DNA from: a virus
Length of the DNA: 29,697 nt
IMG/VR virus record: IMGVR_UViG_3300039249_000004
Location: 1-29,697 of that record
Direction: 5' to 3' (one strand)
Both the position numbers and the translations under genes were made by a program. This document shows positions 3,887 through 26,868 of this stretch, piece after piece (the first letter of the stretch is position 1; each line of letters starts with the position of its first letter). The notes under the pieces were generated by a model. That model had not been told where the DNA came from. It saw nothing but the letters and a program-made list of their open reading frames with translations, and searched no databases.

Positions 3887-4110
3887 TCATCGGCACCGAT
3901 AACTCCGGCCGCGACGTTCGAATCCAACTGGATCGGCTGGTAGAGAGCCGCATGCTCGAATCCGCGCGCGCTGCGCTTATTCCGGCGCGCCCGCACCAGC
4001 CGGTAGCGGTCGCAGGCCGGATTCCCTGCGATGTCTCGGACCCGGGCGCAGTGCATGATCTGGAAAACGGCGGCTACTACAAGTACGACACCGAGGTGAA
4101 GCGTGGATAA
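3883..4110 (+). CDS. unknown small protein, 75 residues
   Basis: The ATG at 3883 overlaps the previous stop (ATGA). A longer in-frame start at 3805 lies within the upstream gene and is less likely. The protein begins MIIGTDNSGRDVRIQLDRLVESRMLES, reading as a strand followed by a helix, and ends in a polar tail. It has no membrane segment or recognised domain. Its end overlaps the GTG of the Gp37/Gp68 gene by 8 bp. Confidence 0.5.
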   Translation: MIIGTDNSGRDVRIQLDRLVESRMLESARAALIPARPHQPVAVAGRIPCDVSDPGAVHDLENGGYYKYDTEVKRG

Positions 4111-5125
4111 GAAGATCTACGGACTCGCCGACAAGGCCTGGCAGGTGGTGGTGGGGTGCGATCCGCGCATGCCGTGCGCCCCACGGTGCTGGGCACGCAA
4201 GACGGTGGCGCGCATCGTAAGGTGTCAGGAGAAGGAGCACTCAGACCGCGCTGCTTTCTTTCAGATCGCGCTGACCCCGGACGGGAAGCAGTGGTCTGGG
4301 CAGACGTTTCTCGACGAGACACACCTCGCCGATCCGTTGAAGTGGCGCAAGCCGGCGCTGATCGCCACCGGGTTCCACGGTGATCTGTTCCGCCTGTCGG
4401 GCGGGAATATTATGCGCGTCATGAACGTCGCGGCCCGTGCGGACTGGCACACATTTCTATTCCTCACGAAATGCTCCAACCTTGCCCTGGAATGGGCGAC
4501 TCGATGGTCAGATACGGCCGAGTCCGATTATGAACCGAAGTTAGCGCGCGGGCCAGAAGCGGTACGAAAGGTGCATACCTGTGGACGCGCCATGCTATTC
4601 GCCGACATGCTGGATGCGATGGGGAAGCCGCCGGCTGGATGCGCATACCCCCTCTACGACTGGATGGAGGGCATGTGCCGGTGGCCCGATAGGTTTCACC
4701 ACATCTCGATCGGCTGCTCGATCATGGACCAGGTCGCCGCCGACGCGCAGCGGCCGGCCATGGCGGCGCTCGCGGCTCTCGGCTGGAGCACCCACGTCTG
4801 GTACGAGCCGGCCATCGGCCGCGTGAACTGGCAAGGATGGGAGTTTATCAAGCTGCTCATCGTCGGCGGCGAGACGGGCGCAAATCCACGACCGTTCGTG
4901 GACAACTGGGCGTACGTGTCTCTCGATTGGTGCCAGCAGCATGGGATCAAGTTCTGGATGAAGCAGCTCGGCGCCAACCCCGTGGATTCTCTCGGCAAGA
5001 TGCGCGGAACGATGTTCCTCAAGACCGACCGAAGCGGCTCGAGGCTGGAGAGCCTGCCGGGCTTGCTGCGCGTCCGCGAGTTACCGGAGACGTTCCGGCG
5101 CGCGACAGCGGAGGTCCCTCGGTGA
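4103..5125 (+). CDS. phage Gp37/Gp68 (DUF5131) family protein
   Basis: The 340-residue product fits the DUF5131 (phage Gp37/Gp68) family. Near the N-terminus a cysteine motif (GCDPRMPCAPRCWARK, C-x5-C-x3-C) matches the family's Cys-rich element, though the usual last spacing is shorter. The middle has the DLFR...W.TFLFLTK pattern, and the C-terminal part carries the family signature LLIVGGETG...RPF...W, then FWMKQLG. The biochemical activity of the family is not settled. Its cysteines have led to comparison with metal- or radical-SAM-type proteins, which I cannot confirm. The start is GTG, in an 8-bp overlap with the upstream gene. The stop overlaps the next GTG (GTGA). Confidence 0.85.
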   Translation: MDKKIYGLADKAWQVVVGCDPRMPCAPRCWARKTVARIVRCQEKEHSDRAAFFQIALTPDGKQWSGQTFLDETHLADPLKWRKPALIATGFHGDLFRLSGGNIMRVMNVAARADWHTFLFLTKCSNLALEWATRWSDTAESDYEPKLARGPEAVRKVHTCGRAMLFADMLDAMGKPPAGCAYPLYDWMEGMCRWPDRFHHISIGCSIMDQVAADAQRPAMAALAALGWSTHVWYEPAIGRVNWQGWEFIKLLIVGGETGANPRPFVDNWAYVSLDWCQQHGIKFWMKQLGANPVDSLGKMRGTMFLKTDRSGSRLESLPGLLRVRELPETFRRATAEVPR

Positions 5126-5262
5126 CCGCCGCTATCGATAGGTTCGGTCCCGTCGTCGCGGTTATGAACCGCAAGGCCGTCGAGTACTGGGGCGGAAAGC
5201 CGGCACAGACGGATCTGGCATTTGTTGGCTATTCGGAAGACAGTGTGGAAAGTGACAGATGA
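5122..5262 (+). CDS. unknown 46-residue protein
   Basis: A small reading frame fills the gap between the DUF5131 gene and the methyltransferase. It starts with GTG in a GTGA overlap and ends in an ATGA overlap with the next gene. The product begins VTAAIDRFGPVVAVMNRKAVEYWGG (first residue Met in the cell) and has an acidic tail. The frame stays open further upstream, but only as a shadow of DUF5131. The double overlap and protein-like composition support it as a real coupled small gene. The function is unknown. Confidence 0.5.
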   Translation: MTAAIDRFGPVVAVMNRKAVEYWGGKPAQTDLAFVGYSEDSVESDR

Positions 5263-6491
5263 TCGATAACACGTCACCATCTCTGAAATCGGAACATAGC
5301 GTAGAAAATCACGCTGGAGTCCGAATCGTGCCGTCATACGATCACGCCGGAATCACGATCTACAATGGCGATGCTCTGGAGATCCTGCGCCAACTCCCCG
5401 ATGCTACTGTGAATTGCTGCATCACGTCGCCGCCGTACTGGGGTCTGCGGGATTACGGCACGGCGACGTGGGATGGTGGTGACACAGAGTGCGATCATCT
5501 TCAGCCGCGTAGAGGCGGCGATGGTCCAGCGTCGCCGATAAACGGCGGCGGATCAGCTCGGAATACTTCGGTTGGGTTGCAGCAGTTCCATGGCACTTGT
5601 CGTAAGTGTGGCGCCACCCGCATCGACTCTCAGATCGGCATTGAACCCACCCCCGAAGCCTACGTCGCGCGCATGGTCGAAGTGTTCCGCGAGGTGCGGC
5701 GGGTGCTGCGGGATGACGGGACGCTGTGGTTGAACTTGGGAGACTCCTATAGCGACAGAAAGATCGGGCGTGCGGATGCTGAGCGCAACGGGGTGGACGG
5801 GTTCACAGGCGGGCAGAAGTTCAAAGGAGAGAAATTTAGCCAGCGTGCGGTGCCCGACGGACTGAAGCCGAAAGACCTGGTTGGCATCCCATGGCGAGTT
5901 GCATTTGCCCTACAAGCGGACGGTTGGTACCTCCGTTCCGACATCATCTGGGCGAAGCCAAACCCGATGCCGGAAAGCGTCACAGACCGGCCAACGAAGG
6001 CACACGAGTACCTGTTCCTGCTGGCGAAGTCCGAGCGATATTGGTACGACGCCGCAGCTATCCGTGAGCCATTCGCAGATGATCGCATGGGGAACCCCAA
6101 TGGTGGCGGCCAGTACGCGAGGGAACTGTATCCTGTTCGTGGACAGGATGGACTGCGCACGGGAAAATGGACGCGCGGCGAAGAATTAGGAGGGCGCAAC
6201 AAGCGTGATGTGTGGACCGTCAATAGCGACCCGTTTCCAGAAGCCCACTTCGCCACGTTTCCGCCTGCGTTGATCCTGCCGTGTGTTCTGGCCGGCTGCC
6301 CGGCCGGAGGAACGGTGCTGGACCCATTCAGCGGAGCCGGGACAACAGCACTGGTCGCCAAAGAGCAAGGACGCCGAGCTATTGGCATCGAACTGAATAC
6401 GGATTACGTCGCCATGATCGCCAAACGACTGTCGCAAGATGTATTGTTTCCAGCGCCACCAGAGGATGAAAGGATAATTTATGAGCGATGA
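5259..6491 (+). CDS. DNA methyltransferase (N4-cytosine/N6-adenine, beta class)
   Basis: This 410-residue enzyme transfers a methyl group from S-adenosylmethionine to an exocyclic amino group in DNA. Motif order is that of the beta class: catalytic motif IV TSPPYW at residues 56-61 near the N-terminus, and the AdoMet-binding motif I DPFSGAGTT at 355-363 near the C-terminus, followed by the acidic IGIEL strand. TSPPYW is more typical of N4-cytosine enzymes, but N6-adenine cannot be excluded. An insert after motif IV (about residues 75-115) contains C-x2-C groups that could bind zinc. No restriction enzyme gene is adjacent, so it looks like a solitary phage methylase, probably for escape from host restriction. 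It overlaps both neighbours. Confidence 0.92.
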   Translation: MIDNTSPSLKSEHSVENHAGVRIVPSYDHAGITIYNGDALEILRQLPDATVNCCITSPPYWGLRDYGTATWDGGDTECDHLQPRRGGDGPASPINGGGSARNTSVGLQQFHGTCRKCGATRIDSQIGIEPTPEAYVARMVEVFREVRRVLRDDGTLWLNLGDSYSDRKIGRADAERNGVDGFTGGQKFKGEKFSQRAVPDGLKPKDLVGIPWRVAFALQADGWYLRSDIIWAKPNPMPESVTDRPTKAHEYLFLLAKSERYWYDAAAIREPFADDRMGNPNGGGQYARELYPVRGQDGLRTGKWTRGEELGGRNKRDVWTVNSDPFPEAHFATFPPALILPCVLAGCPAGGTVLDPFSGAGTTALVAKEQGRRAIGIELNTDYVAMIAKRLSQDVLFPAPPEDERIIYER

Positions 6492-15683: not shown

Positions 15684-18311
15684 ATGTCACTACTCGGACA
15701 GACCATCGAAACTCTGGGAGCCATCGGCGTCCATCACACGGCCGTCGATAAAGACGGCGCCTGGGATGCCGGGGCGAACCTGAAGCGCCTGGGCGACAGT
15801 CCATCGAAAGACGCGCTCCGGGCGATGCACGCCTGGGTGGACCCGTCAAAGGACGCGGCCACAAAGGGAGCCTACAAACTCCCCCATCACGACGTCTCGG
15901 CGGACGGCAAGGTGGGCGCCGCGAACATGGCGGGCTGCGCAGCCGCGATGGGGCGGCTGAACGGGGGCGGCCTCGACATTCCGGCAGATGACAAGAAGGC
16001 CGTCCACGCGCATTTGGTCGCGCACTACAAGGACGCGGGCAAGGATGCCCCGGACCTCAAGGCTGGCGCGTGCACCGGCGGCGAGACGATCTTTCAGGGC
16101 GAACTCTTCTCGGCGGCCCACGATGAGATCAGCTTCGCTCCGCAGACCGCGGATGCCAAGAATCGCACGGTCGATGTGGTCTGGTACGGCGGACAGACCG
16201 TGCCGCGCTACGACGCCGAGACGGACACGGATTACATGCTCCGCTTGAATATGGCGGGCTGCCGCATGGCGCGCCTGAACGCTGGCGCCCCGGTATTCGA
16301 TTGCCACATGACGGGTACGGATTTCAAATCCATCGTGGCGAACCAGGCCGGCGCGAAGGCGCAGCGCGGCTCTGTGGTCAAAGCCTGGGCCGATGGAGCG
16401 GCGGGGAAAGCAACACTGCAATTCGGAGTCGAAGGCGAGAACAAGGACACAGACCAACTCTGGTCCGGCATCGCCTCCGGGCGTATCCGAAACCTCAGTT
16501 TCGGGACGTGGATCTACAGCAAGCAGCCGGTCAAGGACGCCAGCGGCAACGGCACGATGGCGCCTCATCCGAGCGGCAAGCAGGCGCCGGTCTTCGAGGC
16601 TACCGATTGGGAGCCTTTCGAGGTCTCGGCGATCACGGTGCCTGCCGATTTTTCTACTCAATTTCTGTCCGCGTTGGGAGCGGACGGACGACGGGCAACC
16701 AGCCCAAATCAGGAGAGAACCGTCATGGAAGAGACGACTCAGACGGGCGCGGAAGCCCGTAACAATCAGGCAGTACTCGATGCGGCGCGCACCGAGGGAG
16801 CGACGTTGGAGCGCCAACGGGTGGCCGAAATCACCACGCTGGCAACTAACTTCAAATGCCAAAAACTCGGGGCCACGCTGATCGCATCGGGCGCAACGGT
16901 GAAAGAGGCGGAAGCCAAGTTCGCCGCCGCCAGCGAAATCCGCACCATCGGGACTCCGCATCTGAAGCACGGCATTACCACGGAGTTTCTGGACGGGCTG
17001 ATCGACACCGGTACGACGCTCGATGCGGCCAGGGCCAGCATTCTTCAGGAAATCGAGAAGCAGGGGAGCCGCGGGGTGGGCGGCCACCGGGTCGATGTCA
17101 GAACCGAGCTCTCCATCACGCGCGATCAGCAGGAAACGTTCGGCGAGCAGATGACGGCCGCCTTGTTGCTGCGCTACCAGCCGGGCTTCTTCGGTCCGAC
17201 CCGCGGCGCGGAGGTGGCCGCGGAGACCCGCCGGCAGCTCGACCTGGGCAAGCAGTTTCGCGGCTTGAAGCTTATCGAGATGGCGCGGGAGTACCTGGAA
17301 ATCTGCGGCATCAGGACCCGCGGCATGGGGCCGGACGTGATCGCGGCAAAGGCGCTCATCCCCAAAGTTCCGCGCTTCTCGTTCGAGTTGTTCGAGGGCG
17401 GCGCCGAATCCACGTCCGATTTCCCCGGCATCCTGGCCAACGTCGCCAACAAAACCCTGGTCCCGGCTTACCAGGCGTACCCGCAGACTTTCCGGCCGCT
17501 GGCCCGCCAGCAGACGGCGCCCGATTTCAAGCCGATCAATCGCGCCTTCCTCTCGGATTTGGCGGCGCTGCCGAGGCTGAACGAGAAAGGCGAGTACCAC
17601 CGCGCCATTCTGACGGACGGAAACGTCAGTTATTCGCTGGCGACTTACGGCGAGGTGGTGGCTCTGACGCGCAAGACGATCATCAACGATGACCTCCAGG
17701 CCTTCACGCGCACGCCGGCGGAACTCGGTGTGGCGGCCTCCAGAATGGAATCGGATGTCGTCTGGGGTATCGTGCTGGCCAACCCCTCTGCGGTGTATAT
17801 GGGCGACAAGACCTCGGTGGCGCTGTTCGCCGCTGGCCACAAGAACTTCCAGACAGGCGCTCCCTCGGCTTTCGCCGTGGCGTCCCTCGCCACCGGGCGG
17901 ACGCTCTTCCGCCAGCAGACTGGCCCGCAGGGCACGCCCCTCAATCTCACGCCGCGCTACCTCGTCACGGGGACCGCGCTCGAAACCACGGTCGAGCAGA
18001 CCATTTACCCGATGCAGTTGGCAGTCACGGCGGTGACCGCGGGTGTTCCTCCCTGGGTGCGCTCGCTGGTCCCGGTGGTGGAGCCGCGCCTCGACGCCTT
18101 AGCGACCTATGGCGCGACGGCTTGGTACCTGTTCGCCGACCCGGCGGACGTGGCCGGGCTGGAATACGCGTTCCTGGAAGGTCAGGAGGGCGTGTTCCTG
18201 GAGACTCGCCAGGGCTTCGAGGTGGATGGAATCGAGATCAAGGCGCGTCACGATTTCGGCGCCGCGGCAATCGACTACCGCGGCATTCAGCGGAGCAACG
18301 GCGCTGCGTAG
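15684..18311 (+). CDS. prohead protease/major capsid protein fusion
   Basis: One 875-residue frame joins three parts. Residues about 35-125 are a small phage domain (YKLPHHDV...KAVHAHLVAHYKDAGKDAP). Residues about 133-330 are a prohead protease, with likely catalytic His208 (PVFDCHM) and Ser272 (RNLSFGTW) and the closing motif EVSAITVPADF. From about 345, a helical, charged scaffold-like delta region leads into a Mu gpT-like major capsid domain (about 480-875: FPGILANVANKTL, SYSLATYGEVVALTRKTIINDD, LFAAGHKNFQTG, then IKARHDFGAAAIDYRG). The fusion would be self-cleaved after shell assembly. An internal start with its own ribosome site at 16725 could make extra capsid protein. AGGAG precedes the ATG. 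Such fused protease/capsid proteins are known in phages. Confidence 0.9.
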   Translation: MSLLGQTIETLGAIGVHHTAVDKDGAWDAGANLKRLGDSPSKDALRAMHAWVDPSKDAATKGAYKLPHHDVSADGKVGAANMAGCAAAMGRLNGGGLDIPADDKKAVHAHLVAHYKDAGKDAPDLKAGACTGGETIFQGELFSAAHDEISFAPQTADAKNRTVDVVWYGGQTVPRYDAETDTDYMLRLNMAGCRMARLNAGAPVFDCHMTGTDFKSIVANQAGAKAQRGSVVKAWADGAAGKATLQFGVEGENKDTDQLWSGIASGRIRNLSFGTWIYSKQPVKDASGNGTMAPHPSGKQAPVFEATDWEPFEVSAITVPADFSTQFLSALGADGRRATSPNQERTVMEETTQTGAEARNNQAVLDAARTEGATLERQRVAEITTLATNFKCQKLGATLIASGATVKEAEAKFAAASEIRTIGTPHLKHGITTEFLDGLIDTGTTLDAARASILQEIEKQGSRGVGGHRVDVRTELSITRDQQETFGEQMTAALLLRYQPGFFGPTRGAEVAAETRRQLDLGKQFRGLKLIEMAREYLEICGIRTRGMGPDVIAAKALIPKVPRFSFELFEGGAESTSDFPGILANVANKTLVPAYQAYPQTFRPLARQQTAPDFKPINRAFLSDLAALPRLNEKGEYHRAILTDGNVSYSLATYGEVVALTRKTIINDDLQAFTRTPAELGVAASRMESDVVWGIVLANPSAVYMGDKTSVALFAAGHKNFQTGAPSAFAVASLATGRTLFRQQTGPQGTPLNLTPRYLVTGTALETTVEQTIYPMQLAVTAVTAGVPPWVRSLVPVVEPRLDALATYGATAWYLFADPADVAGLEYAFLEGQEGVFLETRQGFEVDGIEIKARHDFGAAAIDYRGIQRSNGAA
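16711..16727 (+). promoter_or_regulatory. internal ribosome site and start within the protease/capsid gene
   Basis: AGGAGA (16711-16716) sits 8 bases before an in-frame ATG (16725). Starting here gives a 528-residue product with scaffold-like and capsid parts but no protease. The spot falls exactly between the protease end and the helical region. It resembles the lambda C/Nu3 nested start and could supply the large excess of capsid subunit over protease. Confidence 0.55.
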
Positions 18312-20231: not shown

Positions 20232-21242
20232 ATGGCAGCAAGAGTACAGCAGCTTATCCTGGGGATCGGCAAAGGGAAACAGGCGGCCATCGGGACGGCT
20301 GGGACGACGTTTCTCCGATTTAAGAAACTCAACGCGGACCTGACCACGCCGAAACCGATCTTCGAAAACGATGCGGCTGAAATCGGGAAGGCAAACGAAT
20401 TCATCGCGCAGACCTATCCGAGTCACTACGAGGTGGCGAACCGTTTCGAAAAATATGCCTCGGCGGAGTTTGTGACGTGGGCGGCGGCTTACGGTCTGGG
20501 TAACATCGTTCAGACCGGATCGAGCAGCCCGTACACTTACACGATCACTCCGTTGAATCCAGGCACTACACTGGAACTGCCGTACTTTTCGGTGGTGGAG
20601 CAGGTGTCGGAGGGCGGCGGTAACTGTGTCGATAACCTATACGTCGGCTGCGCGGTGGAAGACTTTATGTACCAGGCTAACTATGGGCCGGGTCCGAAGT
20701 CTTCGAAGATGACGGTCAACTGGGCCGGTTCCGGCCTACTGACTTCGCCGAGTGCGATCACGGTTCCGGCGCTGACGATTGAAAATAACATGCTGTCGGC
20801 GTCGATGGCGTTGAGCGTGAACGGCGTCGATTACGTGGCGACGAAGCGTATTCTGTCCGCCGAGGTGGGGTGGAAGAATAACCTGCTTCTGAACGCCGGC
20901 TTCTTCCCTGGATCGGGACTGCAAAACGGTTGCCAGGTGCGCGGCCGGATGGAGATCGGGGCGCGCGTTCCAAGTTTCAAGTTCACGGCGCGGTTACTGT
21001 ATGGATCGACGGAGTACAATACGCTGATCGACCAGACCACGGGTACGGCGATACTGAGCGTGCAACACGACGCGAACAACTCGGTATCGTTCGCGTTCCA
21101 ACAGATGGCGTTTCAGGCAGTAGAGAACGGCGAGGGAGACGGGATCGTGACGGTGGTGGTTACGGGCGCGCCGGAGTATAACTCGACTAACGGCATACTG
21201 ACGGTTACCGCGCTTTGCAGCATCGCCGGAATCGCGCAGTAG
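20232..21242 (+). CDS. major tail tube protein
   Basis: This 336-residue protein has a good AAAGGAG site. It is beta-rich with the layout of phage tail tube proteins: a start ILGIGKGKQAAIGTAGTTFLRFKKLN, an F..YAS.EF core, and a C-terminal domain with repeated strands (GRMEIGARVPSFKFTARLLYGS, SVSFAFQQMAFQAVENGEGDGIVTVVVTGAP). It forms stacked hexamers through which DNA is injected. A terminator-like hairpin follows, as is common after this abundant protein. The call rests on length, beta content and position directly before the frameshifted chaperone pair and the tape measure. Confidence 0.8.
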   Translation: MAARVQQLILGIGKGKQAAIGTAGTTFLRFKKLNADLTTPKPIFENDAAEIGKANEFIAQTYPSHYEVANRFEKYASAEFVTWAAAYGLGNIVQTGSSSPYTYTITPLNPGTTLELPYFSVVEQVSEGGGNCVDNLYVGCAVEDFMYQANYGPGPKSSKMTVNWAGSGLLTSPSAITVPALTIENNMLSASMALSVNGVDYVATKRILSAEVGWKNNLLLNAGFFPGSGLQNGCQVRGRMEIGARVPSFKFTARLLYGSTEYNTLIDQTTGTAILSVQHDANNSVSFAFQQMAFQAVENGEGDGIVTVVVTGAPEYNSTNGILTVTALCSIAGIAQ

Positions 21243-21354: not shown

Positions 21355-21525
21355 CGGGTTGGCGCCAGCAACGGGTGACATAGCGCGCGAATGTCCAAGG
21401 GAACCCGATACCGCGGACCGCCAAACCCGCACGGTGATGAGTCGCTACGGGAACGCCGATCAAGCAAGCAGCGGGGAGTGTTATCTAGGCGTGACGCTCG
21501 GGAGAGACCGGGAAAAACCAAAACA
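21355..21525 (+). ncRNA. structured RNA-like region, possibly HEARO/OMEGA (IscB-type) RNA
   Basis: This part of the 298-bp gene-free gap (21243-21540) does not read as protein in any + frame (Arg-rich or broken). It shows several short stems: GTTG/CAAC (21358-21372), CCCG/CGGG around 21426-21451, ACGCC (21453-21457) with GGCGT (21488-21492), and CTCGG (21497-21501) with CCGGG (21508-21512) closing a GAGAGA loop, followed by A-rich AAAAACCAAAACAAG. From memory, stretches such as CGCTACGGGAAC and the A-rich end resemble HEARO RNAs that accompany IscB. No iscB gene follows, so it would be a stand-alone copy. The family is unproven. Confidence 0.4.
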
Positions 21526-21540
21526 AGAGGGATTGTCAGG

Positions 21541-22179
21541 ATGCTCTACGGAGAATTGCCGGTAGTTACGATTGACGGACAGGAATTGAGGGGCGTGACG
21601 GTGCGCGTCGCGAACCCTCCCAAGACGGCCGTGCTTGGGTTGCCGACGAATCAGCAGATGATGGAGCGACTGGATCAACAGAAATCGATCCGGAGGACGA
21701 TTGGACGAAGGAAGTCACAGACGGAATTCGTGCCAAACCTGAAGGCCGACCTGGACCTGTTCGGGAAGATCCGGCAGGATAAGGGCGCGGATTTCGACGA
21801 ATACGAAGCCAGTAACGCCATCGGCAAGCTGAGTTATTGCGAGGTGACGGATTGCCAGCGCGTCGGCGACGAATACCGGGTGACGATCAAGACGCCATTC
21901 GGCGAGACGGCGCACACGCTGCGGATTCCGACTCAGCGGGATATTACGCTGTACCGGCGGACGGTGGTTTCGGCGACGGACCTGCCTCACGGACAGGAAG
22001 AGCTGCGGTACCGGATTGAGCCGGCGGTGACGCTGTACGATGCGGTGTCGGCGAAGATCGAGGGATACGCGGCTTCGTTCAAGCCGGCGGACACGCCTCC
22101 GCATCACAAGTCGGCGGCGGTGGTCGAGTTGATTTCGGCTATCGATGATCTGGACCCGGATCTGGACCCAAACTCTTAG
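21541..22179 (+). CDS. tail assembly chaperone, short form (G-like)
   Basis: A 212-residue protein made when no frameshift occurs. The start at 21541 is chosen because the upstream 50 codons of the open frame are Arg-rich and lie in the structured RNA region. AGAGGG is about 10 bases before the ATG. It opens with a beta sheet (ELPVVTIDGQELRGVTVRVANPP), then helices, a second beta part, and an acidic end (AIDDLDPDLDPNS). The family is not recognised by motif. The assignment as chaperone G rests on position between tail tube and tape measure, and on the -1 frameshift signal at its end, which is diagnostic of G/GT pairs. Confidence 0.75.
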   Translation: MLYGELPVVTIDGQELRGVTVRVANPPKTAVLGLPTNQQMMERLDQQKSIRRTIGRRKSQTEFVPNLKADLDLFGKIRQDKGADFDEYEASNAIGKLSYCEVTDCQRVGDEYRVTIKTPFGETAHTLRIPTQRDITLYRRTVVSATDLPHGQEELRYRIEPAVTLYDAVSAKIEGYAASFKPADTPPHHKSAAVVELISAIDDLDPDLDPNS

Positions 22180-22215
22180 AGCCGGAAGAGTGGCCGAAGC
22201 CGGTCACTCTACGGC
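22167..22215 (+). promoter_or_regulatory. programmed -1 ribosomal frameshift signal
   Basis: The heptamer C-CCA-AAC (22167-22173) is in the correct reading frame, two codons before the TAG stop (22177-22179). After a 7-base spacer comes a hairpin: GCCG (22181-22184) with CGGC (22212-22215), and AGAGTGGCC (22187-22195) with GGTCACTCT (22202-22210, one G-U pair). The overlapping -1 frame is open from 22149 to 22625. All parts of the standard X-XXY-YYZ signal are present. Confidence 0.85.
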
Positions 22216-22625
22216 TGCTGATTTACAGGTCGGTGCGTGCGCACGAACTCTGCGAGGGCGGTGAAGAGGGGCCTGGTGGGTGCCCGAATGCCAACGACGT
22301 GACGTGCGGGAAGTGCGGCTTGCGGCGCGAAGTGGAAGACACGGGCGCGCCGGGCGACTGCCCGCAATGCGGCGGCCGGCAGTTCACAGTGAACCGGTGT
22401 GAGCGGTGTCCGGTGAACGAGCTGGAATACGTCCGCGCGCACTCCGGGGCGGGTAGACTATTCGAGCGGGTGCTGGAACTGGAGTTCGACTGCGATCACT
22501 TCGCGGTGCCGTGGGGGGACGTAACGGCAGAGGAAGTGAGGGGATTGCAGATACTTAAGGAAGAGCGCGCGCGGTACGAGCGGGAACTGCAAAAGCGGAA
22601 CCAAATCCATGCCATTTCAGGCTAA
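22173..22625 (+). CDS. tail assembly chaperone extension (T part of GT fusion)
   Basis: The -1 frame continues from the slip site with LLEPEEWPKPVTLRLLIYRSVRAHELCEGG and so on for 150 residues, giving a 361-residue GT fusion. The frame has no convincing start of its own: the first GTG (22233) would cut off the clearly coding LEPEEWPKPVTLRLLIYRS segment. The T part carries a double zinc ribbon (CGKC...CPQC...CERC) and a C-terminal helical tail (EEVRGLQILKEERARYERELQKRNQ). In lambda, GT brings tube subunits to the tape measure; the same role is inferred. It overlaps the next gene by 17 bp. Confidence 0.75.
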   Translation, partial: LLEPEEWPKPVTLRLLIYRSVRAHELCEGGEEGPGGCPNANDVTCGKCGLRREVEDTGAPGDCPQCGGRQFTVNRCERCPVNELEYVRAHSGAGRLFERVLELEFDCDHFAVPWGDVTAEEVRGLQILKEERARYERELQKRNQIHAISG

Positions 22626-23058
22626 GATCACGCGGGCGCGGTTCGTGCTGGGGCCGTTCAGCGCGGAACAGATGCAGACCATCGGCAACGTGATGCGCGA
22701 CACGATTGCCGAGCGGATACAGAGCGGGATCAACTGCAATGACGGCCAGGCGAAACCGCTCAAGCCGGGCCGGAACGGCAAGCGCGGATACCCGGACTAT
22801 AAAATCGCGCGCGGGATACCGGGGATTCGTAACTGGATCTGGACCGGGCGCACAATGCGGTCGCTGAAGGTGAAAGCGGTGAGCGAAAACCGGGTGACGA
22901 TTGGCTTCGTCGATCCGCAAGCGGACGCGATAGCACACTACAATAATCGACGGGAAAAGCAGTTTGGGGTATCGCCGAAGGATCGCATGGCATTGGGGAA
23001 GATCGTGATGGCGGTGCTGAGGCAGGCGCGGATTGTGCGGGTCAAGAGGGCGGCATAA
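22609..23058 (+). CDS. tail completion/virion morphogenesis-like protein
   Basis: A 149-residue basic protein with the pattern of phage tail-completion proteins (gpG/gp10-like morphogenesis family): an N-terminal helix (FSAEQMQTIGNVMRDTIAERIQSGIN), a basic loop GQAKPLKPGRNGKRG, WTGRTMRSLKVKAVSENRVTIGF, then AHYNNRREKQFGVSPKDRMAL. The T-G-x-M-x-x-S-L and GVSPKD elements are typical. It usually sits near neck genes; here it lies between the chaperones and the tape measure, which is unusual. It starts within the chaperone frame and ends directly before the tape measure ATG. Confidence 0.6.
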   Translation: MPFQAKITRARFVLGPFSAEQMQTIGNVMRDTIAERIQSGINCNDGQAKPLKPGRNGKRGYPDYKIARGIPGIRNWIWTGRTMRSLKVKAVSENRVTIGFVDPQADAIAHYNNRREKQFGVSPKDRMALGKIVMAVLRQARIVRVKRAA

Positions 23059-26000
23059 ATGGACACGGAATCGTTAGTACTGGAAGTCGATCCGCGCAGC
23101 GTGCTGGCGGCCATCAAGGAAGCTAACCGCGCGGTCGATAGCTGGGAAAAGGGAACCGTGGGCGCCGGGGAGAAGATGCAGGCGGCGCTGGAGCGGCAAG
23201 CCGAGCTGCTCATCAAGATGAACGATAAGTCCCGCACCTCGATGGAGCGGCTGACTAACGCGACGATCAAACAGAACGAGATGTACGGGAAGACTCCGGT
23301 ACAGCGGGTGCTTGCTGAGCGCGACCTAATCATCAAGCGGCTGGCCGACGAACAGGGAATGATCGAGAAGGTTAACGCGAGCTACGCGAAGCGCATTGCG
23401 ATCATGGAAGCCGAGCAGGCAGGACACTCGACATTCGGCGAGAGTATCAAAAACTTCATTCAGAACCCGATTCAGGGCGCGCAATCGGCGGCGTCAGGGC
23501 TGCTAGAGAAGTTGGGGCCGGTGGGCGTGGGATTGGGAATCGGCGCGACGGCGCTGGTGGCGTTCGCGACGGCGGCATGGGAATCGGCGAAGGGTCTGGG
23601 CGAGCTGGGCGTGCGCACGGAAGACGCGAAGATCCGACTGGGGATGACAACCAGGGAAGTCGGGGAGTTTTCGTTCGCGGCGAAAGTGGCCGGGCAGGAT
23701 GTGACTGTCTTCGAGCGGATGATGCGCGGCTTGACGATGGCCGTGGAGGATGACACAGCGAAGGGCGAGAAGGCGCGCGGATGGTTGAAGGCCTTCGGGG
23801 TGGATATCGCGGCGATAAAGAACGGGACGGAATCTCCGGCGGAAGTATTCAAGCAAATCGCAGAGGGGTTGGACCGGCTATCGAAGTCGCCGGACCCGTT
23901 CGCCGAAAAGAAAGCGATGCTCGATCTGTTTAAGCGCGCCGGGATCGAAGCTATCCCGGTGATGGAGAAGCTGAACGAGAATCTGCGGACGGCGCATCAG
24001 AACGGGTTCGGGCTGAGTGACGAAGAGCTTACGCGGTTTTTGGAATACCAGAAATCAGTGACGATCATCGAAACGAAGTGGGATGCGATTGTCCGGCACT
24101 TGAAAGAGGGTGTGGTTGGCGCGGTTGCCGCGGCTGCCGATGTTCCGGGGATATTGCGATCCAGGGGCGGTCCGGCGGCGCTGTTCGGCGGCCTGGCGCG
24201 CTCGCTTTTCGGGTTACCGCAAGATTACGCCGGGATGGCGAACGTGGGACGGGACCCGGAGACGGTGCGGCGGGATCACGATCCGTTCGGGCCGCATCCA
24301 ATCGGAGTTCCGACTCCGCCGGCGGAGCCGGTGAAGGCTTCGGCCGAAGAAAACGAATGGGCCCGGCAATTACTGGTGCTTCAGAAGAAAGACACGGAAG
24401 ATGGGATGCTTCCGCTCCAGCGGCTAGTAGTGGAGCGGGATAGGTTCCTAGCGCAAGGGAAGGCTGTCGGGGTGTCGATCAAGGACCTGGCGTTGGCGCA
24501 GCAAGCGTACAACGATCTGATCCGGGATGGCGTGAAGGGGCTGCTGGCACAGAACAAAAAACAGCTCGGCGCGGAGATCAATAAGGAAGATCACGCGCAA
24601 CTCAAGGACCTGCCGAAGAAACTGGTGCTGACTGGCTTCGATCCCGAAGCGGGGAAGCGGGCCGCGGCGGCGGAAGAGGCGGACCGGCAGATTGAGAATA
24701 TCAGCGTGCAGGCGCAGCGGGACGCGCTGAATCGGGAGGCGCGGCAGGCGCACGCGCTGGTAGGGGCGAGTGGGATGGGCGGGGAGGATGCGATCCGCGC
24801 GACGTATCAGATTCGGATCGACCTGGCGCAGCAATTGGCGCTAGTGGAAGCGACGCGGATTGCGCAAGAGAACGACGGGGACAAAAGGCGGATCGATGCG
24901 GCGCACTTGATTGCAGATATTCAGAAAGAGATGGCCGAGGCCCAAGAAGAAGCGTTGCTGAAGCAACTAGAGCTGCAAAAGCAGCAGACGGAGACGCTAA
25001 AGCGCGACACGGAATCGCTATGGAGCACGCTACTGACGCATCCGGCGAAGTTTGGGAAGCAACTGAGCGACACGGTACACGCGGCGGTGATTAAGCCTGT
25101 AGCGGAGGGAATGGCGGGGGTGACGGCCACTGTGTTGAGGCCGATCATTTACGGCGCGGACGGTGGCGGCGGAATCGCGAGCGTGTTTAAGGGCGCATTT
25201 GGCGGCGGGAAGCAAGACCCGATCAAGCTGGCGACGGACATGAACACGGCGGTGACGGCGCAGAATTCGACGGCGCTAGCGACACTGACGGCGGTACTGG
25301 CTGGCGCGATGGGGATGGCGGCGCCGGCGATGGCGACTCCGGCTGGAGTGGGTGGGGTCTCGGTTCCGGCGATATCGGCGCCGGCGGTGAGCGGGATCTC
25401 GCGGGTGTTTAGCGGCGGGCGCGCTTCCGGCGGGTCTGGCGGCGGGGCGAGTTGGATACCGCAGATATCCTTCGGCGGCGGCGGAGGGTCCTGGGGCTCC
25501 GGGACGGCGGTACTGGCTGGCGCGATGGGGATGGCGCCGCCGGCGATGGCGACTCCGGCTGGAGTGGGTGGGGTCTCGGTTCCGGCGATATCGGCGCCGG
25601 CGGTGAGCGGGATCTCGCGGGTGTTTAGCGGCGGGCGCGCTTCCGGCGGGTCTGGCGGCGGGGCGAGTTGGATACCGCAGATATCCTTCGGCGGCGGCGG
25701 AGGGTCCTGGGGCTCCGGGACGGCGAGCGGAGGGTATTCTCCGACGCCTTGGAGCGGCGGCGGGACTCCGCCTTTCGTGGACGCCGGGGGCGGATCTGGC
25801 TGGGATAGCAGTTCGTCGGGAGTTCCGGCGCTGAGTCGGGCGTCCGGCGGCGGCGGAGGCGGCGGGTTCAATCCGGCGTCGATCATACGGATGTTGGGCG
25901 GCGCCGGCGGTGGCGGATCGGCTCCGGGGAGCGACGGAACGTGGGGCGTTTCGTTCGCGGGATCGACGATAGGCGGTGGCTCGACTAGTGATTTTGGTCC

Positions 26001-26868
26001 ATCGGGCAAGTCCGGTAATCCGTTTTCCGCTCTCACGCATAGTCCGGCTTTCAGTAAGGCGAACTGGGGTGTCGGAACCGACGCCGCGGGCGGGACTGAC
26101 TTTGGTAGCGTGGCGACCAGTAAGGGTATGGGCTCGGTTTATTCGAGCATCGGCATGCCACTGATGACTGCCGGGCTGATGGGGAACAGCCGCGGGACAG
26201 GCAAGGGTATCGCGATGGGCGGTATCGGCGGGATGTTTACTGGCGCCGGAATTGGGTCTATGTTTGGGCCGATGGGAACGCTGATCGGCGCGGGCGTGGG
26301 GTTGGTAGCCGGACTCGCGGTGGGAGGGATCGAAGACCTGCTCGGGATGCAATCGCCAGAGCAGAAAGCTAAGCAGCAGGTCAAGGCGATCTATAACATC
26401 TCGATCGATAACGGGATGGCGCAGCAGATCGCCAACCTGGCGCAGTCGAAATACGGCGGGGATGTCGAGGTTGCGGTGCGAGACCCGGAAACGCGCAAGA
26501 TGTTAATGCTGTATGCGCAAGGGACCGGGCAGAAGTTTCCGCTGTCGGCTTCGACTCCGGTGGCCGGGAATCTGGCGGAATCGGGCGGTAATCTGTATCA
26601 GCAAGCGAGCTACGTGAATGGGGTTGCGACCACGTTTACGTCGAGCTTGCCAGTGATGGGCGGACTGGGTGGCGGAAACAACTATCCGACGCCGGGCGGT
26701 CCGAATACGTCGAGTGGCGCGGGTCCGAGTATCGCACTGAATATCAACGGGCAGCCGATCACGTCGGACTTCGTGGCGGATGCTTCGATGGCGGCACAGA
26801 ACGCGAGCTACGGGAGAGTGCAGCAGTCGGCGACGATGCAGGTGCCGGGGCTGATGGTGGGGACGTAA
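23059..26868 (+). CDS. tape measure protein
   Basis: At 1269 residues this is the largest gene in the window. The N-terminal 140 residues are a charged coiled coil, followed by a hydrophobic segment (VGVGLGIGATALVAFATAAW, about 155-175). Then come long helical stretches (to about 690), a Gly/Ala/Ser/Pro-rich region (740-1000) with two copies of a 72-residue repeat, and a hydrophobic glycine-zipper region (IAMGGIGGMFTGAGIGSMFGPMGTLIGAGVGLVAG, about 1050-1090). The protein sets tail length; at roughly 0.15 nm per residue it would give a tail near 190 nm, less if the Gly-rich part is not extended. The hydrophobic segments are those inserted into the host membrane during injection. Confidence 0.92.
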   Translation: MDTESLVLEVDPRSVLAAIKEANRAVDSWEKGTVGAGEKMQAALERQAELLIKMNDKSRTSMERLTNATIKQNEMYGKTPVQRVLAERDLIIKRLADEQGMIEKVNASYAKRIAIMEAEQAGHSTFGESIKNFIQNPIQGAQSAASGLLEKLGPVGVGLGIGATALVAFATAAWESAKGLGELGVRTEDAKIRLGMTTREVGEFSFAAKVAGQDVTVFERMMRGLTMAVEDDTAKGEKARGWLKAFGVDIAAIKNGTESPAEVFKQIAEGLDRLSKSPDPFAEKKAMLDLFKRAGIEAIPVMEKLNENLRTAHQNGFGLSDEELTRFLEYQKSVTIIETKWDAIVRHLKEGVVGAVAAAADVPGILRSRGGPAALFGGLARSLFGLPQDYAGMANVGRDPETVRRDHDPFGPHPIGVPTPPAEPVKASAEENEWARQLLVLQKKDTEDGMLPLQRLVVERDRFLAQGKAVGVSIKDLALAQQAYNDLIRDGVKGLLAQNKKQLGAEINKEDHAQLKDLPKKLVLTGFDPEAGKRAAAAEEADRQIENISVQAQRDALNREARQAHALVGASGMGGEDAIRATYQIRIDLAQQLALVEATRIAQENDGDKRRIDAAHLIADIQKEMAEAQEEALLKQLELQKQQTETLKRDTESLWSTLLTHPAKFGKQLSDTVHAAVIKPVAEGMAGVTATVLRPIIYGADGGGGIASVFKGAFGGGKQDPIKLATDMNTAVTAQNSTALATLTAVLAGAMGMAAPAMATPAGVGGVSVPAISAPAVSGISRVFSGGRASGGSGGGASWIPQISFGGGGGSWGSGTAVLAGAMGMAPPAMATPAGVGGVSVPAISAPAVSGISRVFSGGRASGGSGGGASWIPQISFGGGGGSWGSGTASGGYSPTPWSGGGTPPFVDAGGGSGWDSSSSGVPALSRASGGGGGGGFNPASIIRMLGGAGGGGSAPGSDGTWGVSFAGSTIGGGSTSDFGPSGKSGNPFSALTHSPAFSKANWGVGTDAAGGTDFGSVATSKGMGSVYSSIGMPLMTAGLMGNSRGTGKGIAMGGIGGMFTGAGIGSMFGPMGTLIGAGVGLVAGLAVGGIEDLLGMQSPEQKAKQQVKAIYNISIDNGMAQQIANLAQSKYGGDVEVAVRDPETRKMLMLYAQGTGQKFPLSASTPVAGNLAESGGNLYQQASYVNGVATTFTSSLPVMGGLGGGNNYPTPGGPNTSSGAGPSIALNINGQPITSDFVADASMAAQNASYGRVQQSATMQVPGLMVGT
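25287..25725 (+). repeat. 216-bp tandem duplication in the tape measure gene
   Basis: 25287-25502 and 25503-25718 are two copies of the same 216 bp, with the match running on to 25725. I found a single difference, G at 25321 versus C at 25537, changing Ala to Pro. The unit is in frame (72 codons) and encodes the AVLAGAMGM...WGSGT block. The near identity means the duplication is very recent or kept uniform. Confidence 0.95.

Follow-up and report, generated by a model that had tools for sequence, protein, structure and literature searches.

ORF1 and ORF2, two overlapping reading frames upstream of a tape-measure-like gene in the analysed window (the whole 29,697-nt stretch of viral DNA, IMG/VR record IMGVR_UViG_3300039249_000004), are almost certainly joined by a programmed −1 frameshift at their junction. 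To the explanation as a whole, in which ORF1 would yield a product ending at its own stop and a minority of ribosomes, aided by a hairpin, would slip by −1 to make a GT-like fusion, the chaperone roles of both products included, we give a probability of about 90%. Sequence comparison shows four of its elements, namely the −1 geometry, the slip site, the missing start of the second frame and a constraint at the RNA level.

Slip site and frame geometry in the window

The junction comprises the following features:

21541–22179, + strand: ORF1, likely a gpG-like tail assembly chaperone, 212 aa (start by homology, MLYGE...; modelled)
22149–22625, + strand: ORF2, −1 frame, stop to stop (stop TAA at 22623–22625)
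22167–22173, + strand: putative slippery heptamer C_CCA_AAC (window and 42/42 first-round loci)
22177–22179, + strand: ORF1 0-frame stop TAG, one codon (TCT) beyond AAC
22174–22179, + strand: spacer from the heptamer to the first paired base (sequence and fold)

An in-frame CCCAAAC just before the stop of the first gene had been claimed in a preliminary description of this DNA, and it was found at 22167–22173 on the + strand, where the ORF1 frame reads it as C-CCA-AAC within the terminal codons GAT CTG GAC CCA AAC TCT TAG. The same description held that the second frame is open over the slip site and has no early start. Indeed, ORF2 is open from 22149 to 22625, and its earliest ATG, GTG or TTG is a GTG lying 60 nt beyond its first codon. 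ORF1 and ORF2 overlap by 31 nt with the heptamer inside the overlap, and because the −1 frame is open only between 22149 and 22625, the shift has to fall inside these 31 nt. Reading from 22173, ORF2 would supply a gpT-like extension of 150 aa. The start of ORF1 was placed by homology at ATG 21541, and the ATG of the longest open reading frame at 21391 was rejected.

The junction peptide, given earlier as DLDP-K-LLEPEE, needs correction, since standard decoding of AAC yields DLDPN-LLEPEE; a K at the junction would be expected only if slippage of the P-site tRNA preceded the decoding of AAC. As a plain 7-mer, CCCAAAC is not rare in the window (6 occurrences on both strands against 3.4 expected, a number reached in 16 of 100 shuffles). 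The heptamer by itself is therefore no proof, and the case is a comparative one.

Conservation of the junction in close relatives

ORF2, used as a query singly and as an alignment, retrieved 37 loci in viral contigs and five in bacterial MAGs (first-round loci), the MAG titles of the five being Bryobacterales (2), Solibacteraceae (2 loci, one MAG) and Acidobacteriia (1). GACCCAAACT in the −1 geometry is kept by the window and by 42/42 of these loci (43 rows), relatives that are non-independent, many coming from the same MAGs and clades. Conservation of the heptamer among related phages, suggested earlier as a comparison to make, thus proved complete in this first round. In the 42 loci the ORF1 stop lies one codon past AAC (TAG in 39, TGA in 2 and TAA in 1), and L007 has an in-frame insertion after the stop. 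Several of the loci are near-duplicates, and the junction of L002 is identical to that of the window.

The codons GAC CCA AAC show zero synonymous change in 35 distinct ORF1 sequences. At each of the other conserved proline columns listed for ORF1, CCA is a minority codon or absent, and CCG, CCC or CCT leads. After amino-acid normalisation, the 14- and 17-codon windows starting at GAC have the lowest synonymous change in ORF1 and ORF2; with windows of 3, 5 and 10 codons, equally low or lower values occur at the ORF1 start. The analysis was run on 35 ORF1 rows and 31 ORF2 rows after L041 (broken ORF1), L022 (cut ORF2; dropped for ORF2 only) and identical copies had been removed, and L024 was included with an incomplete start.

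A probable stimulatory hairpin 3′ of the slip site

22180–22216, + strand: hairpin, probable stimulator, 10 bp + 5 bp with a 4-nt loop by RNAfold (fold z, relatives, synonymous constraint)

A 61-nt test piece containing this hairpin had a folding energy of −31.2 kcal/mol (z = −4.1), which 0 of 200 shuffles equalled. The hairpin had been described as a 9+4 bp stem behind a 7-base spacer; its presence stands, and its dimensions are revised to the 10 + 5 bp given by RNAfold and a distance of 6–7 nt from the heptamer. Relative to related sequences, the window differs at three stem positions, which jointly lengthen the uninterrupted inner stem. Across 16 aligned sequences the stem hardly varies, with 98.4% of cells paired, and because of this near-invariance no base-pair covariation was found in them. 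Compensatory changes among relatives, which the preliminary description had named as a further check, were looked for and the covariation was absent; two-sided changes at two outer pairs in the RNAalifold output were discounted as support for it.

Among 27 distinct first-round sequences including the window, 19 had a fold z of −2 or lower, and the remaining eight (L005, L016, L029, L030, L032, L033, L035 and L042) folded within 2 sd of their shuffles. The predicted hairpin is weak in L030, L032, L091, L092 and L102, all of which have the CCCAAAC heptamer. L054 has a different hairpin at the equivalent place (−20.7 kcal/mol, an energy alone, taken without shuffle comparison), and L033 has one of 7 bp there (z −0.8, no better than shuffles). 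In L007, a 54-nt in-frame insertion (L007:4941-5006) directly after the ORF1 stop is itself a hairpin beginning about 6 nt past the heptamer (z −2.5), and an exact 27-base piece of it was found in the viral collection in its own contig only. The −1 frame of L007 is open through the insertion, the old beginning of ORF2 now has an ATG and the heptamer is kept. Translation of ORF2 in L007 could start at this ATG, and −1 frameshifting is also compatible with the open frame.

Synonymous change is also depressed at ORF2 codons 4, 6 and 10–14, located within the hairpin arms (31 distinct ORF2 rows). The hairpin is thus supported by frozen synonymous codons, by fold scores in most relatives and, in a few, by different hairpins in the equivalent position, and it is probably a stimulator of the frameshift.

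The two proteins and their gene neighbourhood

The genes flanking ORF1 and ORF2 are as follows:

20232–21242, + strand: upstream tail gene (weak match to PHROG 290, tail, E 2.5e-8)
22609–23058, + strand: small gene overlapping the ORF2 end (no PHROG match; sub-threshold Pfam match)
23059–26868, + strand: tape-measure-like gene, 1269 aa (size, position, weak PHROG match)

The gene order runs terminase, portal, protease-capsid fusion, head decoration, tail gene, ORF1/ORF2, small gene and tape-measure-like gene. The last of these matched the tape measure PHROG 12506 with an E of 0.0013, and a PHROG of unknown function matched better (2.4e-6). Within it, positions 25287–25725 hold a 216-base tandem duplication (99%), possibly a recent change in tail length. 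The protease-capsid fusion is a single 875-aa protein (15684–18311) with matches in head protease as well as major capsid families, among them PHROG 4523 'major head and protease protein' (E 3.9e-163) and Phage_capsid_4. Elsewhere, the window carries an IS1595-family transposase (1637–2581; DDE_Tnp_IS1595 E 1e-46, zinc-ribbon domain E 2.2e-9) and an N6/N4 DNA methylase (5259–6491; PF01555, E 7.5e-48), which adjoins a DUF5131 gene at 4103–5125.

Among the VIA rows for the predicted structure of ORF1 (pLDDT 85.7), the HK97 tail assembly chaperone 2ob9 ranked first, the match being confined to the N-terminal half (Z 4.7, rmsd 4.2, 70 aligned, 23% identity, residues 2–99), and was followed by unrelated rows at Z 3.8 and 3.7. 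A Z of 4.7 lies below the level of kinship and can reflect a shared arrangement alone. Foldseek searches of ORF1 against PDB and viral models gave no match at E ≤ 0.001, with viral "tail assembly chaperone" proteins appearing at E 0.17 and 0.40. PHROG and Pfam scans, run with single members and with alignments, named neither ORF a chaperone, and tblastn with ORF1 and ORF2 of the window and with both L179 frames found nothing in 50,697 phage records. The second half of the ORF1 model repeats a similar order of elements to the first. Comparison of the profiles of the two halves gave E 0.0038 with a probability of 8.8% for a divergent 10-row alignment and E 0.08 for a 19-row one. L172 and L174 are each matched twice by segments from the C-terminal half of the ORF1 profile. 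An internal duplication in ORF1 is therefore possible. The earlier view that the two frames are tail-chaperone-like is upheld, with the chaperone identity resting on gene order and the weak fold match; taking these together with the architecture, a tail-chaperone function is likely.

In ORF2, cysteines are conserved:

22251–22409, + strand: eight conserved ORF2 cysteines, C27, C37, C45, C48, C63, C66, C76 and C79 (invariant in 19/19)

Four of them make up an outer site, into which a putative second zinc ribbon (C45–C66) is inserted. The inner four are absent in L171, L173 and L179, and in the short form of ORF2 generally. In the 19-row alignment, conserved ORF2 residues begin directly past the junction. 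Pfam zinc-ribbon and HypA matches of the window ORF2 are below the cut-offs, and zinc-ribbon matches are below the cut-off in up to 7 of the 19 members. Foldseek gave local matches to zinc ribbons of RNA polymerase with high probability and an E of about 0.3, and a VIA search with the ORF2 model (pLDDT 70, pTM 0.48) gave nothing above Z 2.4. Adenylate kinase, which occupied the top structure rows, some of them zinc-carrying, fitted poorly and was rejected as the identity of ORF2. The double zinc ribbon proposed for the second frame is in line with the eight invariant cysteines and the weak profile matches, the second ribbon being inserted in a single part of the tree, the branch of the window. 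ORF2 thus probably contains one or two zinc-binding sites. Among the papers listed, we found none linking tail assembly chaperones with zinc, judged by titles and the beginnings of abstracts.

Slip-site turnover in the wider family

An ORF1 alignment brought in more distant relatives, L084 and L085 at 53% identity and L090, L091 and L092 at 33–35%, and a single query with L091 added L102. CCCAAAC is present in L084, L085, L091, L092 and L102 and absent in L090. Of 396 genomes of the phylum that were searched, 5 had a match, and a broader profile matched 48 of 257 genomes of the order.

The resulting census held 174 loci, with many contigs represented twice, which reduced to 109 distinct 120-nt junctions and 107 clean ones. 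The two set aside were L206, with an indel later in ORF2 and CCCAAAC present, and L247, at a contig edge with no junction. L041 and L246 were counted through their intact end, which is identical to that of L016. Four of the 107 (L070, L186, L210 and L248) have ORF2 cut by the contig end after 20–29 aa. Nine loci in which ORF1 has no ORF2 match or is cut (L086, L088, L089, L093, L172, L174, L244, L249 and L250) lie outside the counts; at the ORF1 stop, L172 has GGGAAAC, L174 GGGAAAA and L244 GGGTTTT.

All 107 clean distinct junctions, from viral contigs and Acidobacteriota genomes, show the −1 relation. An X_XXY_YYZ heptamer occurs in 91 of them, in 89 cases at most 16 nt from the ORF1 stop, and is CCCAAAC in 73, AAATTTT in 12 (two of which sit 31 nt before the stop), GGGAAAC in 3, and AAAAAAC, GGGTTTC and AAACCCT in one each. 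The 16 junctions without such a heptamer divide into seven NNNGGAA sites (CCCGGAA in 6, including L090, and CTCGGAA in L241) and nine with TTTT (AAGTTTT in 7, two of them some codons before the stop, AACTTTT in 1 and AGATTTT in 1). The CCCGGAA and CTCGGAA junctions (L090, L177, L178, L184, L185, L241 and L245) are still −1 and have no ATG nearby, and may represent a non-canonical slip site. An in-frame A_AAG heptamer was found in the last 37 nt of 0 of the 107 junctions.

An ATG, GTG or TTG in the −1 frame between −60 and +30 nt of the ORF1 stop occurs in 4/107 junctions, with no ATG among them, and the first −1-frame start past the stop is found at a median distance of 53 nt, the maximum being 344 nt. 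Loss of the heptamer together with gain of a strong ORF2 start had been named beforehand as evidence against frameshifting; all four start-bearing junctions keep a canonical heptamer, and L007, with its ATG, keeps the heptamer as well.

On a quick ORF1 tree of 101 of the 107 rows (pieces below 120 aa dropped, last 12 residues excluded), which includes several long branches and leaves 37 of its 98 inner branches open, the slip class changes 15 times, against a shuffled mean of 29.4. L190 (CCCAAAC) and L215 (GGGAAAC) are one example of sister pairs with different sites. The long and short forms of ORF2 are separated by one change on the same tree.

Two multi-copy cases were also observed. The Solibacteraceae MAG G001 (L170 and L175–L179) holds six copies of the chaperone gene in three slip classes (CCCAAAC, AAATTTT and CCCGGAA). 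The 66-kb contig IMGVR_UViG_3300036781_000806 carries two copies of the cassette, L091 and L092, in opposite orientation and with ORF1 63% identical, pointing to two tail modules or a chimera.

Upstream Shine-Dalgarno-like elements

Of 59 short-form junctions, 50 carry an AGGAG, GGAGG or GAGGA core at most 25 nt ahead of the slip site, and in 46 of these 50 it ends 8–11 nt before the site. The core is present in 4 of 48 long-form junctions, and the window junction (row L002) is without it. Such elements characterise the sister branch, not the branch of the window. In the bacterial dnaX frameshift, an upstream Shine-Dalgarno sequence acts as a stimulator, and the short-form element resembles it. 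The codons that make up the element (CAG, GAG) are also common in these genes. The pattern suggests selection for an upstream Shine-Dalgarno-like element, the host anti-Shine-Dalgarno sequence being assumed.

Proposed mechanism and alternative explanations

In the proposed mechanism, most ribosomes would terminate at the TAG at 22177 and release the 212-aa ORF1 protein. A minority would pause at the hairpin (22180–22216) with tRNA-Pro on CCA and tRNA-Asn on AAC, and a tandem −1 slip would move tRNA-Pro from CCA to CCC and tRNA-Asn from AAC to AAA. Continued reading in the −1 frame would produce a 361-aa GT-like fusion (211 aa + 150 aa; ...DLDPN-LLEPEE...), the C-terminal part of which would carry the probable zinc site or sites. 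By analogy with lambda, the short form may coat the tape-measure protein and the scarce fusion may recruit tail-tube subunits. We infer slippage itself, its efficiency, the chaperone function and this division of labour.

In E. coli, with a strong IS3 stimulator, 61 of 64 X_XXZ_ZZN motifs shift, and C_CCA_AAC is not one of the three failures named in the available part of that report (PMC4066793). According to the available parts of PMC4066793 and PMC5009743, A_AAG sites are stronger than A_AAC in E. coli, the former source ranking them as the strongest, and this counts against the explanation.

ORF2 might instead be a gene in its own right, expressed either from a start of its own or through re-initiation past the ORF1 stop, with the heptamer incidental. 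Overlapping, translationally coupled genes are frequent in phages, and candidate starts exist, namely the GTG 60 nt into ORF2 of the window and, in L007, the ATG at its new ORF2 beginning. However, starts near the ORF1 stop are as rare across the 107 junctions as given above and none is ATG, the first one usually lies well downstream, conserved ORF2 residues run from the junction on, and the DPN codons are frozen at the RNA level, which makes a separate gene very improbable. That the two frames are a single gene broken by an assembly error or as a pseudogene is hardly credible. Metagenome contigs do carry indel errors, and ORF1 of L041 and L246 and ORF2 of L206 look broken, but the same −1 relation recurs in 107 distinct junctions from many assemblies as well as bacterial genomes, and in the first round the position of the stop is constant while its identity varies. 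The 107-junction comparison thus refutes breakage as a general explanation.

The shift could also be real but arise during transcription, by polymerase slippage, or from one tRNA slipping beside the stop, rather than in tandem. Relatives with AAGTTTT, AACTTTT, AGATTTT, CCCGGAA and CTCGGAA, mostly right before the stop, speak for such a process, as canonical tandem re-pairing is impossible there. CCCAAAC, however, lacks a long homopolymer on which a polymerase could slip, and CCA and AAC are both conserved in the branch of the window, as fits tandem slippage. We give this reading a slim chance, slightly above that of a separate ORF2 gene, and retain tandem −1 slippage at C_CCA_AAC as the explanation for the window.

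Host tRNAs and comparison with known systems

The tRNA loci examined in the G001 MAG, the source of L039, include Lys CUU and UUU, one Asn GUU, and Pro UGG, GGG and CGG. With at most 2 mismatches allowed, 215 of the order's 257 genomes matched the anticodon-arm pattern of tRNA-Lys(CUU); among the 48 genomes that have a chaperone match, a count by eye gave 41. Some of the matched arms may be from other or degenerate tRNAs, and the reversed-pattern control gave one match (G650). No such arm was found in G421, G455, G557, G560, G610, G621 and G632, genomes that are possibly incomplete. A dedicated AAG-reading tRNA may make A_AAG a poor slip site and lead to the choice of A_AAC and TTT, the comparison of host groups covering this order only. 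Extending this, phages of Acidobacteriota might have re-tuned the frameshift to the host tRNA-Lys(CUU), avoiding A_AAG, using A_AAC, U_UUU and NNNGGAA/nnnTTTT, and trading the hairpin for an upstream Shine-Dalgarno-like stimulator between branches; we put this forward tentatively and judge the odds to be somewhat against it.

The cassette appears to be the lambda G/GT device, already well known, in a further group of phages, those of Bryobacterales and related soil Acidobacteriota, with variant parts and not a new kind of system. As in lambda G/G-T, which has many counterparts in other long-tailed phages, and going by the available part of PMC5009743, overlapping frames lie upstream of the tape measure gene (here a tape-measure-like one), the −1 slip falls near the end of the first frame and the second frame has no start. 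It differs from lambda in the C_CCA_AAC site with an Asn A-site codon, in one or two probable zinc sites in ORF2, in an ORF1 of about 210 aa with a possible internal duplication and in an extra small gene before the tape measure. The likeness to lambda G/T is one of architecture; sequence kinship was not found. ORF1 is also about twice as long as the HK97 chaperone 2ob9, its best structural row.

In the haloarchaeal tailed viruses HCTV-1 and HCTV-2, the g-t frameshift uses G_GGA_AAC and A_AAA_AAC, likewise with A_AAC as the second codon (available part of PMC5009743). GGGAAAC and AAAAAAC also occur among the relatives here, a likeness of slip sites; the hosts of those viruses are archaeal. Two non-canonical SEA-PHAGES chaperone motifs of PRFect, threetwotwo and twoonefour, fit CCCGGAA and AAGTTTT by their names alone; as far as the available part of PMC10885494 goes, PRFect was trained on SEA-PHAGES genomes, whereas CCCGGAA and AAGTTTT were found here in Acidobacteriota genomes. 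We found no literature on CCCAAAC recoding and, on frameshifting in Acidobacteria prophages, nothing on this cassette, both judged by titles and the beginnings of abstracts; a search for 'CCA AAC' with frameshift and phage also returned none.

The unusual parts of the cassette are A_AAC in place of A_AAG, slip-site turnover, branch-specific Shine-Dalgarno-like elements and one natural 54-nt hairpin insertion. Our results would extend the lambda G/GT frameshift to a large group of Acidobacteriota phages, the chaperone-like proteins of which were unnamed by the libraries searched. Together, the relatives form a natural series in which one junction occurs with several slip heptamers, two kinds of putative stimulator and an in-frame hairpin insertion. 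These natural variants make the determinants of the slip site (tRNA set, stop context and stimulators) directly testable, and the conserved cysteine site, in a domain that would be made only as part of the fusion, provides a handle on the role of the T domain.
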